A stretch of 64,000 nt of DNA from Plesiomonas shigelloides (GTDB taxonomy: Bacteria; Pseudomonadota; Gammaproteobacteria; Enterobacterales; CAMTGL01). This document shows, one piece after another, positions 43,782 to 52,034 of this stretch (position 1 is its first letter; each line of letters opens with the position of its first letter). The stretch is from contig NZ_LT575468.1 in the NCBI RefSeq assembly GCF_900087055.1, positions 2,421,773 through 2,485,772 of the forward strand. The letters run 5' to 3'. The translations under genes were made by a program, and so were the position numbers. A model generated the notes under the pieces. The model was not told the DNA's origin and did no database searches. It saw nothing but the letters and a program-made list of their open reading frames with translations.

Positions 43782-44099
43782 TTGCAAGGCAAGACACTCC
43801 AAGACTTTGTTATTGATAAAATTGACGATCTGAAAGGCCAAGATATCCTGCCTTTAGATGTACGCGGCAAGTCCAGCATCACCGATTACATGGTGATCGC
43901 TACCGGTACATCAAGCCGTCATGTCTCTTCCATCGCTGACTATGTGGCTAAAGAAGCCCGTCTGGCAGGTGCGGATATGATGGGGATCGAAGGTACACAA
44001 ACCGGTGAATGGGTGATCGTGGATCTGGGTGATGTGATTGTGCACATCATGCAAGAAGAGAGCCGCGCCCTGTACCAACTGGAAAAACTCTGGAGCTAA
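43782..44099 (+). CDS. rsfS: Ribosome silencing factor RsfS
   Basis: Binds ribosomal protein L14 and blocks subunit joining in poor conditions. The 105 residues equal the E. coli length, with the near-identical ends [20 protein letters not shown] and [21 protein letters not shown] split across the fold. It starts at TTG, with AGGGGG five bases upstream and no ATG alternative at the conserved N-terminus. rlmH follows after 3 bases. Confidence 0.95.
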
Positions 44100-44102
44100 G
44101 CG

Positions 44103-44573
44103 GTGAAACTGCAACTGGTCGCGGTCGGCACCAAAATGCCGGCCTGGGTTGAAACGGGCTTTCAAGAATATGTGCGCCGTTTCCCCAAAGACATGCCGTT
44201 TGAACTGCTGGAAATTCCAGCCGGAAAGCGCGGCAAAAATGCCGATATCAAGCGCATTCTGGAAAAAGAAGGCGAACAAACACTGGCGGCCATCCCAAAA
44301 GGCAACCGGATTGTAACGCTGGATATTCCGGGCAAACCGTGGACGACCGAGCAATTGGCCGAACAGCTGGAGCGCTGGAAGCAAGATGGCCGCGACGTCA
44401 GCTTTTTGATTGGCGGGCCGGAAGGTCTGGCGCCGTCGTGTAAAGCGGCAGCGGACCAAAGTTGGTCTTTATCTCCCCTGACCTTACCACATCCGCTGGT
44501 ACGGGTCGTGGTGGCAGAAAGTTTATACCGGGCGTGGAGCATCACAGCTAACCACCCTTATCACCGGGAATAA
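44103..44573 (+). CDS. rlmH: 23S rRNA pseudouridine-1915 N3-methyltransferase
   Basis: SPOUT methyltransferase acting on helix 69 of 70S ribosomes. The 156-residue protein (155 in E. coli) has the knot and SAM loop [13 protein letters not shown] and the C-terminal [18 protein letters not shown] with YHRE end. GTG start. It sits between rsfS and mrdA, the E. coli order. Confidence 0.96.
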
Positions 44574-44614
44574 TTACGCTGTTTACAGCATTATCATTGG
44601 GATTGTTATAGCGG

Positions 44615-46516
44615 ATGAAGCAGGATCGTACGCATTTTCGGGATCACTCGTCGGAAAGCGCGTTATTTTTTCGCCGGGCCATTGTCGCCTTTATCGGCAT
44701 TCTGCTGTTAAGCGGTGTTCTGGTTGCCAATCTGTACCACCTTCAGGTGCAGAACTACGAAGACTACCAGACCCGCTCCAATGATAACCGGATCAAACTG
44801 CTGCCGATCCCGCCGAGTCGGGGTCTGATTTATGACCGCAACGGCATTTTGCTGGCGGAAAACCGCACCGTTTTCCAATTAGAGATGGTGCCGGAGAAAG
44901 TCGACAGCGTCGATAAGACGCTGGCTGCTTTGCGTCCCATTGTGGGCCTGACCGACGAAGATATCGCCAACTTCCGTAAAGAGCGCAAGCGCTCACGCCG
45001 TTTTAGCTCTATCCCAATTAAAACGCCGCTCAATGAAGAGCAGGTGGCCCGTTTTGCCATCAACCAATACCTCTTCCCCGGCGTGGAAGTGAAAGGCTAC
45101 CTGAAGCGTTACTACCCGTATGGGGAGGCGCTGACGCACGTCATCGGCTATGTAGCCAAAATTAACGATAAAGATGTCGAGCGACTGGATAAAGAAGGTC
45201 GACTGGCCAACTACGCCGGTACCCACGATATCGGTAAGCTCGGCATCGAGAAATACTACGAAAACATCCTGCACGGCCAAGTGGGTTCAGAAGAAGTTGA
45301 GGTCAACAACCGCGGCAAGGTGATCCGCAAACTGCGTGAACAGCCTGCCACCGCCGGTCAAAACATTACGCTGAGCTTAGATCTGGAGCTGCAGCAATAT
45401 ATCGAACGCATTCTGGGTAAACGCCGCGGCGCGGTCGTGGTGATGGATCCTCGCGATGGCAGCATTCTGGCGATGGTCTCCAGCCCAAGTTATGACCCGA
45501 ACCTGTTCGTCAACGGTATTCCGAGCAAGACCTATAGCGCCCTGCTCAACGATCCAGATCGCCCGCTGATTAACCGGACCACCCAAGGTACCTATCCACC
45601 GGCCTCCACCGTCAAACCATTGATTACCGTGGCGGCGCTGGAGTCTGGCGCGATCACCACCAAAACCACGCTGTTTGACCCCGGTTGGTGGAAACTGCCG
45701 GGCTCAGAAAAACGCTACCGCGACTGGAAAAAGTGGGGCCACGGTCAACTGAATATCACCAAAGCGATTGAAGAGTCTGCAGATACCTTCTTCTATCAGG
45801 TTGCCTACGACATGGGCATCGATCGCCTGTCGGAGTGGATGAAGAAATTCGGTTTCGGTCAGTATACCGGCGTGGATATCTCGGAAGAGCGCTCGGGCGT
45901 CATGCCATCACGGGAATGGAAAATGGCCCGTTATCGTAAGCCGTGGTATCAGGGCGATACCATTCCGGTGGGGATTGGCCAAGGTTACTGGACCGCCACT
46001 CCATTGCAGCTAGCTAAAGCCATGACCATTTTAATCAACGATGGCGAAGTGAAACCGCCACACCTGTTAAAGAGCATTCAGGGTAACGGCATCACCATGA
46101 ACTATCCGGAAGAAAATCTGCCCTCGATTGGCGTGAAAGACTCCGGCTACTGGGAAATCGCCAAAGACGGTATGTATGGGGTAAACCACCGACCAAACGG
46201 CACCGCGCGCAGAGCATTTGCTGGCACGCCGTACAAGTCCGCCGGTAAGTCAGGTACTGCGCAGGTATTTAGTCTGGCACCAAACCAGACTTACGATGCG
46301 AAGAAGCTGGCCAATTACCTGCACGACCATGCTTGGTTCACCGGTTTTGCGCCGTATGACAACCCACAAGTCGTCGTCTCCATTTTGCTGGAGAACGCCG
46401 GTGGCGGCTCCACCAACGGTGCACCAATCGCACGTAAGATTTTCGACCATATTTTGCTGGGTAAGAACGATACCGATCTGCCGGCTGCGACACAGGATCA
46501 TACTCCGAATGACTGA
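44615..46516 (+). CDS. mrdA: Penicillin-binding protein 2 (transpeptidase)
   Basis: Class B PBP that cross-links lateral-wall peptidoglycan in the elongasome with RodA. The 633-residue protein (E. coli 633) has one N-terminal membrane anchor (about 22-42) and a dimerisation/pedestal region. The transpeptidase domain carries the SxxK motif STVK at 331-334, SAD-type (ESADTFFY) and KTG-type (KSGTAQ) motifs. Its stop overlaps the rodA start by 8 bases. Confidence 0.98.
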
Positions 46517-47627
46517 TACCAATCCCAATCGCCCTCGTTCATTCTGGGATCGCATTCATATCGATCTCCCGCTGCTGACGGGGTTGTTACTGCTGCTGAT
46601 GATGGGCGCGTTTGTGATGTACAGCGCCAGCGGTCAGGACATCGACATGATGGAGCGTAAAATCGCGCAAGTTAGCTTAGGTCTGCTGGCGATGTTCGGC
46701 ATGGCGCAAATTCCACCGCGCGTGTATGAAAGCTGGGCACCGTACCTGTATATCGTCGGGGTGATTTTGCTGGTGCTGGTTGACCTGTTCGGCGCGATCT
46801 CCAAAGGGGCGCAGCGCTGGCTGGACTTAGGCTTCATCCGCTTTCAGCCTTCGGAGCTGATCAAACTGTCGGTACCGCTGATGGTGGCGCGTTTTATCAG
46901 CCGCGAGCCATTACCGCCCTCGTCACGTAACACGGTCATCGCACTGATCCTGATCTTTGTTCCAACCTTGCTGGTTGCAGCGCAACCGGACTTGGGGACC
47001 TCGGTGCTGGTTGCCAGCTCGGGTCTGTTCATCGTGTTCTTATCCGGCATCAGCTGGTACTTCATTTTGGGCGCGGTATTGTTGATCGCCGCCTTCGTGC
47101 CGGTGCTGTGGTTCTTCCTGATGCACGATTATCAGCGCACGCGGGTACTGACTCTGCTCAATCCAGAAAGTGATCCGCTGGGCGCCGGTTATCACATTAT
47201 CCAATCCAAGATTGCCATCGGCTCAGGTGGCGTGTTCGGTAAAGGTTGGCTGCACGGTACGCAGTCCCAGCTGGAGTTTTTGCCAGAGCGCCACACGGAC
47301 TTTATTTTCGCGGTGATCGCCGAAGAACTGGGGATGATCGGCTTCTTAGTGTTGCTGGCCTTGTACCTGTTTGTCATCGCCCGTGGCCTAGTGATCGCGT
47401 CACGTGCGCAGACCGCCTTTGGCCGTCTGCTGGCCGGGGGTATCACCCTGATCTTCTTTGTATATGTATTTGTGAATATTGGTATGGTCAGTGGTATCCT
47501 TCCGGTGGTGGGCGTACCGCTGCCACTGATCAGTCATGGTGGTACTTCCATCATTGCTCTGATGGCCGGTTTTGGTATCGTGATGTCTATCCATACCCAC
47601 CGTAAAATGTTATCTAAAAACGTATGA
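46509..47627 (+). CDS. mrdB: Rod-shape peptidoglycan glycosyltransferase RodA (SEDS)
   Basis: SEDS-family glycan polymerase partnered with PBP2. The 372-residue protein (370 in E. coli) has ten predicted helices and the SEDS signature [19 protein letters not shown]-like block (HGGTS) near the C-terminus. The start ATG at 46509 overlaps the mrdA stop by 8 bases; the frame is open about 97 codons further upstream within mrdA but without homology. A short SPOR lipoprotein gene follows after 8 bases. Confidence 0.96.
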
Positions 47628-47635
47628 GGGACTTC

Positions 47636-48400
47636 ATGCGCAATTTACGCGTTTCCGCAATTGTCTTCAGTTTGCTGCTGGCAGGATGTGCCGCCCAGCA
47701 GCCAGCGCCACATCAGGATGCGGCCAATCAGCCACAAGATCAGGGTGAAGAGACTCAATCTTTTGCTCTGGATATGTCGCCACAAATGGAGACGCTGGGT
47801 AGCGCCGTACCGGTTAATCACGAAGCCAGTGAGCCTGAGTATGCCCAACCTGCGGCGCGCAGCGCAGACAGCGCTTACGCCGCAAGCAGCGATTCAGATA
47901 ACAGTTATGCCAGCAGTGCTGCGCAGCCAACCCTGAGCCAACCGGGCCCGATTGAAGATGCACCGGCTAAGCAGCAAGCCTTACCGATGTACAGCAACAC
48001 CGATCAAAACGGTGTCACCACCATGGTCAGTACCGAAGGCAACAATACGCGCATTCACTTTGCCGCCCCTGCCGGTGAGCCCGAAGTGATCCCCGAGCCT
48101 ACCGCGGCAGCGCCGGTCGCCTCCCGCACCGCGACAACACACACTTACACTCCTGCCGCCAGCAGCGCTGATGGCTACATGGTGCAAGTGGTCGCGATCA
48201 GTAATGCGGAGCGGGCCAAACAATTGCTTACTCAGCTTAAACAAAGTCACCAAGTCAGCGGTAAAATCGAACCGGCCGGTGCGTTTTACCGAGTTCAGCT
48301 AGGACCGCTGAGCTCACGTGCACAAGCTGAGGAACTCCGAGACAGTCTGAAGGTCGAAAACTATCAGCAAGCGTTTGTTTTAGCGGGCGCCGGACGCTGA
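47636..48400 (+). CDS. SPOR-domain lipoprotein at the rlpA position (no DPBB domain)
   Basis: A 254-residue lipoprotein: signal peptide with lipobox LLAGC (Cys18), then a long low-complexity Ala/Pro/Gln/Ser linker (about 20-175). A C-terminal SPOR domain (about 180-252) includes YMVQVVAISNAERAKQLL and AFYRVQLGPLSSRAQAEEL. SPOR domains bind denuded septal glycan. E. coli rlpA occupies this locus between mrdB and dacA, but its double-psi beta-barrel (RlpA/DPBB) catalytic domain is absent here. I therefore avoid the name rlpA and infer a non-enzymatic glycan-binding role. The ATG at 47636 has GAGGG upstream; an ATG at 47624 overlapping rodA's stop is possible. Confidence 0.85.
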   Translation: MRNLRVSAIVFSLLLAGCAAQQPAPHQDAANQPQDQGEETQSFALDMSPQMETLGSAVPVNHEASEPEYAQPAARSADSAYAASSDSDNSYASSAAQPTLSQPGPIEDAPAKQQALPMYSNTDQNGVTTMVSTEGNNTRIHFAAPAGEPEVIPEPTAAAPVASRTATTHTYTPAASSADGYMVQVVAISNAERAKQLLTQLKQSHQVSGKIEPAGAFYRVQLGPLSSRAQAEELRDSLKVENYQQAFVLAGAGR

Positions 48401-48484
48401 TAAAACCCGCCCTGTCAGTGAGGGTAGCGGATACCTTGTTCATTTAACTTTTTGTTTCACCATGGAAGAAGTCACACACAGACC

Positions 48485-49663
48485 ATGAAATTAACTACAT
48501 TTACCCAATCTATTCGGGCTCTGCTGCTCGGTACTCTATCGGTTTCCGCATGCTATGCGCAGGCAGATACCACCATTCCTGCAGCGCCTGAAATCGCGGC
48601 GAAGTCTTATATCCTGATTGATTACAACTCAGGAAAAGTTCTGGCTGAGCGCGATGCCGATATGAAGGTTTTGCCGGCCAGTCTGACCAAGATGATGACC
48701 AGCTACGTTATCGGCCGCGAAATCAAAGCCGGTAAAATCTCGCCGGACGACATGGTCACCGTGAGCAAAAACGCATGGAGCAAAAACTACCCGGACTCCT
48801 CCAAGATGTTTATCGAGGTGGGTAAGCAGGTCAAAGTGGCTGACCTGAACCGCGGTATCATCATTCAATCCGGTAACGATGCGTGTGTGGCGATGGCTGA
48901 ACACGTTGCCGGTAGCGAAGATTCCTTCGCCGACATGATGAACAACTATGCCAAGCAACTGGGCATGACCAACTCCCACTTCATGAACCCACACGGTCTG
49001 GATAACCCAGAACAGTACAGTACCGCGCGTGATTTGGCGACACTGGGCGCCGCGCTGATCCGTGATGTGCCGGATGAGTACGCCGTGTATAAGGAAAAAT
49101 CCTTTACCTATAACGGGATCACCCAGCCAAACCGTAACTCCCTGCTGTGGGACAAGAGCATGAATGTGGACGGGATCAAAACCGGTCACACCGCCGCTGC
49201 CGGTTATAACTTGGTGACCTCCGCGACAGAAGGCCAGATGCGTCTGGTTGCCGCAGTCATTGGTGCTTCCAGTTCACAACAGCGCGCGGCAGAAAGTAAA
49301 AAACTGCTGACGTGGGGCTTCCGTTTCTTTGAAACCATCGAGCCGCTGAAAGCCGATCGTGAATTTACCAAAGAGCGCGTTTGGTTTGGTGACAAGTCAG
49401 AAGTTAGCCTCGGCGTGCTGAAAAATGTTTACCTGACCGTACCACGTGGTCGCGTTAACGATCTGAAAGCGCACTTTGTGCTGGATAAAGAATTGAAAGC
49501 ACCACTTAAGCGTGGCGAAGCGGTCGGTAAAATCTACTTCCAGCTGGATGGCAAAGATATTGATACTCAGCCGCTGGTGGTATTAAATAACGTCGAAGAA
49601 GGCGGGATCTTTAGCCGTCTGATGGATTACTTCACTTTACTGTTCCACCGTTGGTTTGGCTAA
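48485..49663 (+). CDS. dacA: D-alanyl-D-alanine carboxypeptidase DacA (PBP5/6-type)
   Basis: Periplasmic low-molecular-weight PBP that trims pentapeptides. The 392-residue protein has a signal peptide (about 1-27) and SLTK (66-69), SGN ([10 protein letters not shown]) and KTG ([13 protein letters not shown]) motifs. A PBP5-type C-terminal beta domain follows, and the amphipathic membrane-anchor helix ends [10 protein letters not shown]. The start at 48485 gives a normal signal peptide; the frame extends 11 codons upstream. It is downstream of the SPOR lipoprotein, with its own terminator. Confidence 0.95.
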
Positions 49664-49714
49664 TTTCGCCCCCATATAGTCAACAGTAACGCGTAACAAC
49701 GTTATCTCAAGGAT

Positions 49715-49745
49715 GATCCCGGCCTCTTGCCGGGATCGTTTTTTG
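49715..49745 (+). terminator. Terminator of dacA
   Basis: Perfect 9-bp stem GATCCCGGC/GCCGGGATC with a 5-base loop, then GTTTTTTG. Confidence 0.9.
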
Positions 49746-49953
49746 TTGCGGCCAATAGCGTACAACGCAAGAAAGTCGGCATACAAAGATATGCTGACAA
49801 GGCTGCAGATTCGTGCGGATAATACACACCGCCTTAGCGCGATGCGAATAACACGCATCCCATCCGGTGCTCGTATTCCTGTTAGAGAGTAGGGATACCC
49901 TTTAATTTTATCTGGCAACGGAGGCACTCACTCCCCTGATAGGAGACATGATT

Positions 49954-50220
49954 ATGCAAAAGACCAAACTGAATGAACTGCTGGAATTCCCATGCTCTTT
50001 CACTTACAAAGTCATGGGTTTGGCACAGCCAGAATTGGTAGACAAAGTACTGAACGTTGTGCAAAAGCATGCGCCGGGCGATTACACCCCAAGCGTTAAG
50101 CCAAGCAGCAAAGGTAACTACCACTCCGTATCTGTGACTATCACCGCAACCCATATCGATCAGGTCGAAACCCTGTACGAAGAGCTGGGTGCCATCGATA
50201 TCGTACGTATGGTGCTGTAA
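49954..50220 (+). CDS. ybeD: UPF0250 protein YbeD
   Basis: Conserved 88-residue alpha/beta (ACT-like) protein of unknown function, near-identical to E. coli Ybe[20 protein letters not shown] and [18 protein letters not shown] are the hallmark ends. The start is the second of two in-frame ATGs (49948, 49954), since GGAG lies 8 bases before it. It precedes lipB, as in E. coli. Confidence 0.94.
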
Positions 50221-50248
50221 TCAGGCTTTCGCTTGTCCGGCAACACCG

Positions 50249-50254
50249 TATAAT
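50249..50254 (+). promoter_or_regulatory. Candidate lipB promoter (-10)
   Basis: A perfect TATAAT at 50249-50254 lies between ybeD and lipB, about 34 bases before the lipB start; no convincing -35 is visible. Confidence 0.35.
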
Positions 50255-50287
50255 GCACCTGATAATCACAACTTTATGGTGATGCTT

Positions 50288-50947
50288 TTGCAACATCAAA
50301 CTTTGATTGTACGCCGTTTGGGCATGCAGGATTACGCATCGGTCTGGCAAGCGATGCATGACTTCACTGATCAGCGCAGCGAAAATTGCGCTGATGAAGT
50401 GTGGCTGGTCGAACATCCACCGGTATTCACCCAAGGTCAAGCTGGCAAGGCTGAGCACTTACTGGCTTGTGGTGATATTCCGGTGATCCAGTCTGATCGC
50501 GGGGGTCAGGTCACCTACCATGGTCCGGGTCAAATCGTTATGTATGTGTTGGTGGATCTGCGCCGTCGCCGTCTCGGTGTTCGCGAGTTGGTCAGCCATA
50601 TCGAAAACACCGTCATCAATACACTGGCCCACTTCTCCCTGACCGCCGCAGCGCGTGCCGATGCTCCCGGCGTCTATATTGATAATAAAAAAATCTGCTC
50701 TCTGGGTCTGCGGATCCGGCGGGGCTGCTCGTTCCACGGACTGGCCCTCAATATTAATATGGATTTGTCTCCCTTCACCCGAATCAACCCTTGCGGATAC
50801 GCCGGCATGGAGATGACTCAGACAAAAGATCTGGGCGGTCCTGAAACGGTGGCAGAGGTCGAGCCGGTTCTGGTGCAGGAATTTATCAAATTACTCGGTT
50901 ACTCCGGTGCTGAGTATTCTAGTTGGAAACCACTGACCAATGAGTAA
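50288..50947 (+). CDS. lipB: Octanoyl-[acyl-carrier-protein]:protein N-octanoyltransferase
   Basis: Moves octanoate from acyl-ACP to lipoyl domains; LipA then inserts sulfur. The 219-residue protein (213 in E. coli) has the catalytic lysine in [29 protein letters not shown] and Cys in [11 protein letters not shown]. The start I prefer is TTG at 50288: it has GGTGA five bases upstream and gives exactly the E. coli N-terminal length. An ATG at 50276 without a Shine-Dalgarno is the alternative. Its end overlaps lipA by 8 bases; E. coli has ybeF between them. Confidence 0.94.
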
Positions 50948-51905
50948 ACCTATTCAGATTGAACGGGGCGTGAAATACCGCGATGCCGATAAAATGGCAT
51001 TGATTCCGGTGAAAAACGTTGCCGCTGAACAGAGTGAGCGCCTGCGTAAGCCCGAGTGGATGAAAATCAAGCTGCCCGCTGATTCCACCCGGATCCAAGA
51101 AATCAAATCTGCCATGCGCCACAACGGTCTGCACTCGGTGTGTGAAGAAGCTTCTTGCCCGAATCTGGCTGAATGCTTTAACCACGGCACCGCGACCTTC
51201 ATGATCCTCGGCGCTATCTGTACCCGTCGCTGCCCGTTCTGCGATGTGGCACATGGCCGTCCACTGCCGGTTGATCCGGAAGAAGCCGCCAAACTTGGCC
51301 GCACTATCCGTGATATGAAGCTGAAGTATGTGGTGATCACCTCGGTCGATCGCGATGACCTACGCGACGGCGGTGCGCAGCACTTTGCCGATTGCATCAG
51401 CAGTATCCGCACCGAAAGCCCAAATATCCGCATCGAAACGCTGGTCCCTGACTTCCGTGGTCGAATGGACAAGGCACTGGATATTTTCGCGCAAACCCCA
51501 CCGGATGTGTTCAACCACAATCTGGAAAATGTGCCGCGCTTGTACCGTCAAATTCGCCCGGGCGCAGACTATCAGTGGTCGCTGACCTTGCTGCAAAAAT
51601 TCAAAGAACTGCATCCGGATGTGCCGACTAAGTCAGGCCTGATGATGGGGCTCGGTGAAACTAACGAAGAGATTTTGCAAGTGATGCAAGATCTGCGCGA
51701 TCACGGTGTAACGATGCTGACGCTGGGACAATATCTGCAGCCAAGCCGTCATCACCTGCCGGTACAGCGTTATGTCAGCCCAGCAGAATTTGATGACTTC
51801 AAACAAAAAGCGCTGGAAATGGGCTTTACCCATGCCGCGTGTGGTCCGTTTGTCCGCTCTTCTTATCATGCGGATCTGCAGGCTAAAGGCGAAGAAGTTA
51901 AATAA
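50940..51905 (+). CDS. lipA: Lipoyl synthase
   Basis: Radical-SAM enzyme that inserts two sulfurs into octanoyl groups. The 321 residues equal E. coli LipA. The auxiliary cluster motif [12 protein letters not shown] and the radical-SAM motif CTRRCPFC are intact, and the C-terminal SSYHADLQA carries the auxiliary-cluster serine ligand region (RSSYHA). It overlaps lipB, so the two lipoate genes are translationally coupled. Flavodoxin (fldA in this window) is the usual electron donor for such enzymes. Confidence 0.97.
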
Positions 51906-52034
51906 AAGCGACGCTGGTATATTGGCGCTGATAGAACGTCATCGCTGTAACGGCGCTGTTACCGAGCGGCTGTTATAGCGGTGCTGCTACAAACTGCGCT
52001 ATTACACACTGAACATGACACACTGAACAAACCG

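Follow-up and report, generated by a model that had tools for sequence, protein, structure and literature searches.

What became of rlpA in Plesiomonas shigelloides? Within the stretch of this genome analysed here (64,000 nucleotides, hereafter the window), the initial annotation placed a gene for a signal peptide, a long linker and a SPOR domain between mrdB (rodA) and dacA, where Escherichia coli has rlpA, and proposed that the DPBB domain of RlpA had been lost. Such a gene raises the question of whether it truly descends from rlpA and, if so, what an RlpA without this domain might do. The accessible sections of two papers (PMC6895207, PMC6113214) call RlpA the SPOR protein with the highest conservation across bacteria. 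Among the openly licensed papers listed, titles and abstract openings describe no RlpA that has a SPOR domain but lacks a DPBB, and none treats RlpA of Plesiomonas.

Architecture of the gene and absence of the DPBB domain

The features of the locus in window coordinates are as follows:

46509..47627, plus strand: mrdB/rodA, the upstream neighbour (NF008060 MrdB, 1.2e-197, 656 bits; start set by eye)
47636..48400, plus strand: SPOR-only gene, putative rlpA orthologue, 254 residues (an in-frame ATG at 47624 is an alternative start giving 258 residues)
47636..47689, plus strand: lipoprotein signal peptide through the lipobox cysteine (LLAGC), read from the sequence; the cysteine is residue 18 of the 254-residue form
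47756..47806, plus strand: linker motif 1, residues 41-57, QSFALDMSPQMETLGSA, kept in the sister species
47972..48100, plus strand: linker motif 2, the searched segment being residues 113-155 and the conserved core about 116-154
48167..48382 (contig 2469939-2470154), plus strand: SPOR domain, RlpA type (PF05036 at 8.5e-16, RlpA-SPOR model, fold match)
48452..49663, plus strand: dacA, PBP5-type carboxypeptidase, the downstream neighbour (Peptidase_S11, 5.9e-101; ORF start mechanical)

The gene lies in an open frame (47624-48400) between rodA and dacA, and the profiles of both neighbours (MrdB, and DacA/Peptidase_S11) confirmed this as the rlpA locus, with dacA scoring 587 bits with NF008059 DacA, under the cut-off of 694 for that model. 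The rodA stop codon ends at 47627, 8 nt before the ATG at 47636, and because AGGG (47627-47630) stands just upstream of this ATG and the protein of the sister species likewise begins with MRN, 47636 is the better start. No RNA element was found with Rfam in 44000-52000, and the GC content of the window is 52.6%.

In the encoded protein, a signal peptide with a lipobox is followed by about 160 residues of linker and a single SPOR domain, which is the layout first proposed from the sequence. The lipobox was called by eye, Cys18 was invariant across an alignment of 30 proteins, and the alanine at +2 after this cysteine is consistent with outer-membrane sorting. The SPOR domain was detected by Pfam at 8.5e-16 (residues 182-253 of the 258-residue reading; 58.5 bits versus a cut-off of 21). 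The NCBIfam RlpA model NF007953 reached 79.7 bits versus its cut-off of 201 and matched at profile positions 188-360 of 362 only, i.e., the region after the DPBB, spanning linker and SPOR.

A DPBB was found neither in this protein nor elsewhere in the genome, which is a single contig rated 100% complete. The Pfam scan of the protein with a maximum E-value of 10, a setting under which HMMER filters still drop most matches above about 0.1, listed the SPOR domain and no DPBB, and PF03330 gave nothing above its cut-off over the whole 3.41 Mb genome; the lone weak match (E 0.5, 12.4 bits) fell in a frame that we take to be AsnB-like. A DPBB model built from 12 relatives, which scored 178 bits in a positive-control genome, left both this genome and the 75% complete genome of the sister species without a match at E ≤ 1, and comparing the two-species alignment with the 12 DPBBs at the profile level returned a probability of 0.2%. 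The genome thus appears to hold neither another full RlpA nor any recognisable remnant of the domain.

Constraint and probable descent from rlpA

The sole other sampled genome of the genus (G001), the 75% complete draft from the sister species, carries the gene in the same position, after rodA and before dacA, and its product (235 residues, about 60% identical) is SPOR-only too. An assembly or sequencing error that removed the DPBB would thus have to have produced the same architecture in two genomes, and in the window species would have to have done so in a complete single-contig genome with no DPBB elsewhere, so we regard such an error as extremely unlikely, almost to the point of being negligible. 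The initial annotation had named a full-domain orthologue in a close relative, together with such an error, as an outcome that would speak against domain loss; the close relative turned out to share the SPOR-only form.

Synonymous divergence between the two species was high and similar across the locus (pS of 0.76 for this gene, 0.73 for rodA, and 0.65 for dacA), while pN was 0.26 for this gene compared with 0.05 for rodA and 0.06 for dacA. Because synonymous change is saturated, no whole-gene dN/dS was calculated, but the pN far under pS and above that of the neighbours indicates a gene that is constrained yet fast-evolving. By part, pN was 0.23 in SPOR, 0.11 in residues 33-55 (motif 1), 0.13 in residues 113-152 (motif 2), and 0.43 in the other linker, with these motif limits having been set after the alignment was viewed. 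The raised pN might suggest a decaying, pseudogene-like remnant under little constraint, the more so as several lineages lack the gene altogether. Such decay is nonetheless distinctly improbable, as two species with nearly saturated synonymous sites both retain the open frame, the lipobox and SPOR, pN is far below pS, and the two linker motifs are conserved.

A gene under constraint could still be of foreign origin, i.e., rlpA may have been deleted and an unrelated SPOR lipoprotein may have entered the rodA-dacA gap, and it is the SPOR domain that bears most directly on this. A SPOR model was derived from 80 RlpA ORFs, with this genus left out. Its profile score for the protein was 87.9 bits, within the range of true RlpAs with a similar model (about 59-105 bits), and for that of the sister species 83.9 bits. 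The same model gave 41.1 and 21.2 bits for two of the genome's other SPOR proteins, which we take to be FtsN-like and DedD-like, respectively, and listed neither the presumably DamX-like protein nor the fifth SPOR protein of the genome at E ≤ 10. Identity within SPOR ranged from 32 to 47% against 20 sampled Enterobacteriaceae, Yersiniaceae and neighbouring families, and from 18 to 35% against nine from Vibrionaceae and Shewanella. Structure prediction pointed the same way: the alignment used for it was limited to the SPOR ends, and AlphaFold was confident in SPOR (block means 93-96 over residues 181-250), while confidence was low outside SPOR (whole-protein mean 63.8, pTM 0.38). The top PDB fold match was the RlpA SPOR 6i09 (E 6e-4), the sole one of 1105 matches at or below 0.001, and the sequence match to the solved P. 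aeruginosa RlpA SPOR structures was weak (E 0.026).

Some results were set aside in the course of these comparisons. The spread of the linker over DPBB columns in the full-length alignment was judged an alignment artefact, a profile comparison of the two species with full RlpAs (100% probability) was circular as its alignment contains the window protein, and SPOR matches extending into the linker (13 of 40 genomes) or over the DPBB (L013) were taken as chance extensions.

Within motif 1 of the linker, QSFAL weakly resembles the KQS(F/Y)AL that comes shortly after the DPBB in relatives, and motif 1 may perhaps be a relic of that post-DPBB segment. However, in a junction test 100 of 5000 shuffled linkers scored as well as QSFAL (33 of 5000 for the sister species), so that the resemblance is only suggestive of a deletion junction. 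Among 394 genomes of the order, the only two with a match to motif 2 belong to this genus, and AlphaFold placed three short strands in the motif at low confidence. These three observations, i.e., most of the linker having no clear likeness to other RlpAs, the weak junction test, and the confinement of motif 2 to one genus, are what might be expected of a replacement gene. Set against them are the RlpA-like SPOR score obtained with a genus-free model, the graded SPOR identities, the unchanged place and orientation, and the NCBIfam RlpA match that spans linker and SPOR, though under its cut-off. Altogether, we consider displacement unlikely and direct descent from rlpA the better account.

RlpA loci and the catalytic aspartate among relatives

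When the gene itself served as query, no related loci were found. With rodA as query, the best 80 of at least 594 candidate loci were retained, all from named relatives, and 72 of these had a DPBB ORF downstream of rodA, with SPOR in the same ORF in 69. Conversely, all 69 SPOR ORFs carried a DPBB, and SPOR without DPBB occurred at none of the 80 rodA loci. The mirror image of the window gene, a DPBB ORF with no SPOR match by this model, was observed in three Pasteurellaceae (L075, L090, L098). The remaining eight loci had neither domain within 4 kb and comprised three Gilliamella, in which rodA and dacA are adjacent, as well as four insect symbionts and L074. The four symbionts are weak cases of gene absence because dacA is missing or partial within 4 kb and the flanks reveal rlpA only if the operon is intact. 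The L074 locus, titled Enterobacter sp. Cy-643, has a rodA on a long branch and neither rlpA nor dacA in the following 4 kb, and was left out of state counts.

An evenly drawn sample of 295 genomes from the order, each at least 90% complete, extended the survey to genomes without the domain. A DPBB match was present in 254 (253 above cut-off), and the DPBB-negative set comprised 41 genomes including the window genome, 21 of which were identified by exclusion from the list. In the one genome with a weak match (G093), the DPBB frame was cut by a contig end. Among the other 40 DPBB-negative genomes, rodA was present in 33, and 7 had no rodA match at 1e-60. A dacA followed rodA within about 210 bp in 27 of the 33, and in the remaining 6 the operon is not intact, as no dacA was seen in the stretch examined. 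None of the 33 had an RlpA-type SPOR frame downstream of rodA, so other lineages appear to lose the whole gene, and across the 80 loci and the DPBB-negative genomes no genus but this one showed the SPOR-only form. The 27 genomes with no rlpA between rodA and a close dacA (L101-L113, L115-L128) belong mostly to family f27, and the three Gilliamella (L068, L069, L087) show the same arrangement. At one locus, L148 (G145), from a small genome, rodA is broken by stop codons.

Beyond the loss of domain or gene, the enzymatic residue itself varies among the relatives. E. coli RlpA is stated to be inactive because its catalytic aspartate is a serine (PMC9712689, from the part of the text available). 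We infer that the aspartate of an (I/V)IDLS motif corresponds to D168 of P. aeruginosa, which is consistent with this published statement. Read by motif and not from an alignment column, the matching position holds D at 51 of the 72 DPBB loci and S at 14; three loci have A, two (Proteus) have Q, and two (Xenorhabdus) have E. In total, the presumed catalytic aspartate was substituted in 21 of 72 named relatives, the E. coli group among them. Serine was found in Escherichia, Citrobacter, Enterobacter, Raoultella, Buttiauxella, Cedecea and kin. The Morganellaceae RlpAs (L036, L040, L050, L053, L057, L073) have E, Q or A at this position and are without the WYG motif common in most others. A RodA tree, made quickly and used only for the least number of changes, has poorly supported deep branches and a number of long ones. 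On it, the distribution of D versus other states (substituted, domain lost, gene absent) required at least 5 changes, 3 of them forced by strongly supported branches. Given such repeated substitution at the presumed catalytic aspartate, the SPOR-only form may be one of several routes to giving up RlpA catalysis.

Possible role and comparison with known systems

Based on the locus, the RlpA-type SPOR, the DPBB in all 69 comparable relatives, and the like form of the second species, which together support the domain loss first suggested for this locus, we consider it probable (roughly 80%) that the gene is a direct descendant of rlpA, that the DPBB was lost in the ancestor of the genus, and that the product is a non-catalytic septal glycan-binding outer-membrane lipoprotein. 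Mechanistically, an in-frame loss would have removed the stretch that separates the lipidated N-terminus from the C-terminal linker, including the whole DPBB (i.e., the lytic transglycosylase), and what remains would be a lipoprotein that is anchored in the outer membrane and carries its SPOR domain on a flexible linker. As amidases strip septal peptidoglycan, the SPOR domain would bind the denuded glycan, and the lipid anchor might link the constricting septum to the outer membrane, bring the linker motifs near divisome partners, or do both.

The predicted septal binding is drawn from conserved SPOR residues. Residues Q270, A273, R309, L307, F274, R302, and R311 of P. aeruginosa RlpA are linked to denuded-glycan binding in the accessible text of one study (PMC6895207). 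By alignment, Q270, A273, and R309 are kept here as Q184, A187, and R219, with Q184 invariant and A187 and R219 nearly so in 30 sequences. The other four are changed (L307 to Phe, F274 to Ile, R302 to Glu, R311 to Gln), and the basic patch is weaker than in P. aeruginosa as a result; E. coli-type RlpA, too, has Gln at the R311 position.

The protein itself would cut no glycan, and this work at the septum would fall to the genome's other lytic transglycosylases. These include Slt, MltA, an MltB-type enzyme, MltC, MltD, MltF, and an MltC/EmtA-like protein (below both cut-offs), in an inventory that did not cover MltG. No GHL10 (PF02638, DigH-type) hydrolase was found in the genome, with a positive E. 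coli control, and the septal denuded glycans are thus presumably handled by the transglycosylases listed.

It is also conceivable, though we hold this only tentatively, that the enzyme was turned into a dedicated regulator or tether, in which motifs 1 and 2 would serve as partner-binding sites (divisome or envelope) and RlpA would act purely by recruitment, as FtsN and DedD do. A precedent for the non-catalytic septal role proposed above exists in E. coli, where RlpA is described as a partner of FtsK and its deletion as partly suppressing ftsK44 filamentation (PMC6113214, in the portion available); such a role need not require catalysis.

This lineage bears on how E. coli RlpA functions with no detectable catalysis. 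That the catalytic domain was dropped while the anchor, the glycan-binding domain and the locus were kept suggests that selection maintains the non-enzymatic part in these bacteria, and a SPOR-only RlpA offers a clean test protein for the idea of a non-enzymatic role.

Compared with known systems, the protein resembles E. coli RlpA in its locus, in being a lipoprotein, and in sharing the Q, A and R at the key positions of its SPOR domain (as read from the E. albertii row). The accessible parts of two papers describe E. coli RlpA as structural, with no detectable lytic activity (PMC9712689, PMC6113214), and those of a third state that no enzymatic activity has been reported for E. coli SPOR proteins (PMC7642682), while a further paper treats it as a putative lytic transglycosylase, one statement there having rlpA cleave denuded glycans at the septum (PMC12288456, available in part). 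As several papers report E. coli RlpA itself to be inactive, the change in function may be more modest than the architecture implies. The E. coli group nevertheless differs in keeping a full DPBB, with the catalytic Asp reportedly a Ser, whereas here the whole domain is gone, and the Plesiomonas form is probably a more extreme version of what E. coli RlpA is thought to show. P. aeruginosa and Vibrio cholerae RlpA share the SPOR domain and lipoprotein anchor, and the P. aeruginosa SPOR-RlpA structures were the best fold and sequence matches for this protein, but both RlpAs are described as enzymes in the available text (PMC9712689, PMC12288456), unlike a protein without a DPBB. Finally, FtsN, DedD and DamX likewise carry a C-terminal SPOR after a linker, shown by NMR to be disordered in DedD, and in the passages available of two papers they have no reported enzyme activity and are linked to septal peptidoglycan synthesis in E. 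coli (PMC7642682, PMC9712689). In contrast to these membrane-spanning proteins, each with its own SPOR subtype, the Plesiomonas protein is a lipoprotein of probable RlpA descent.
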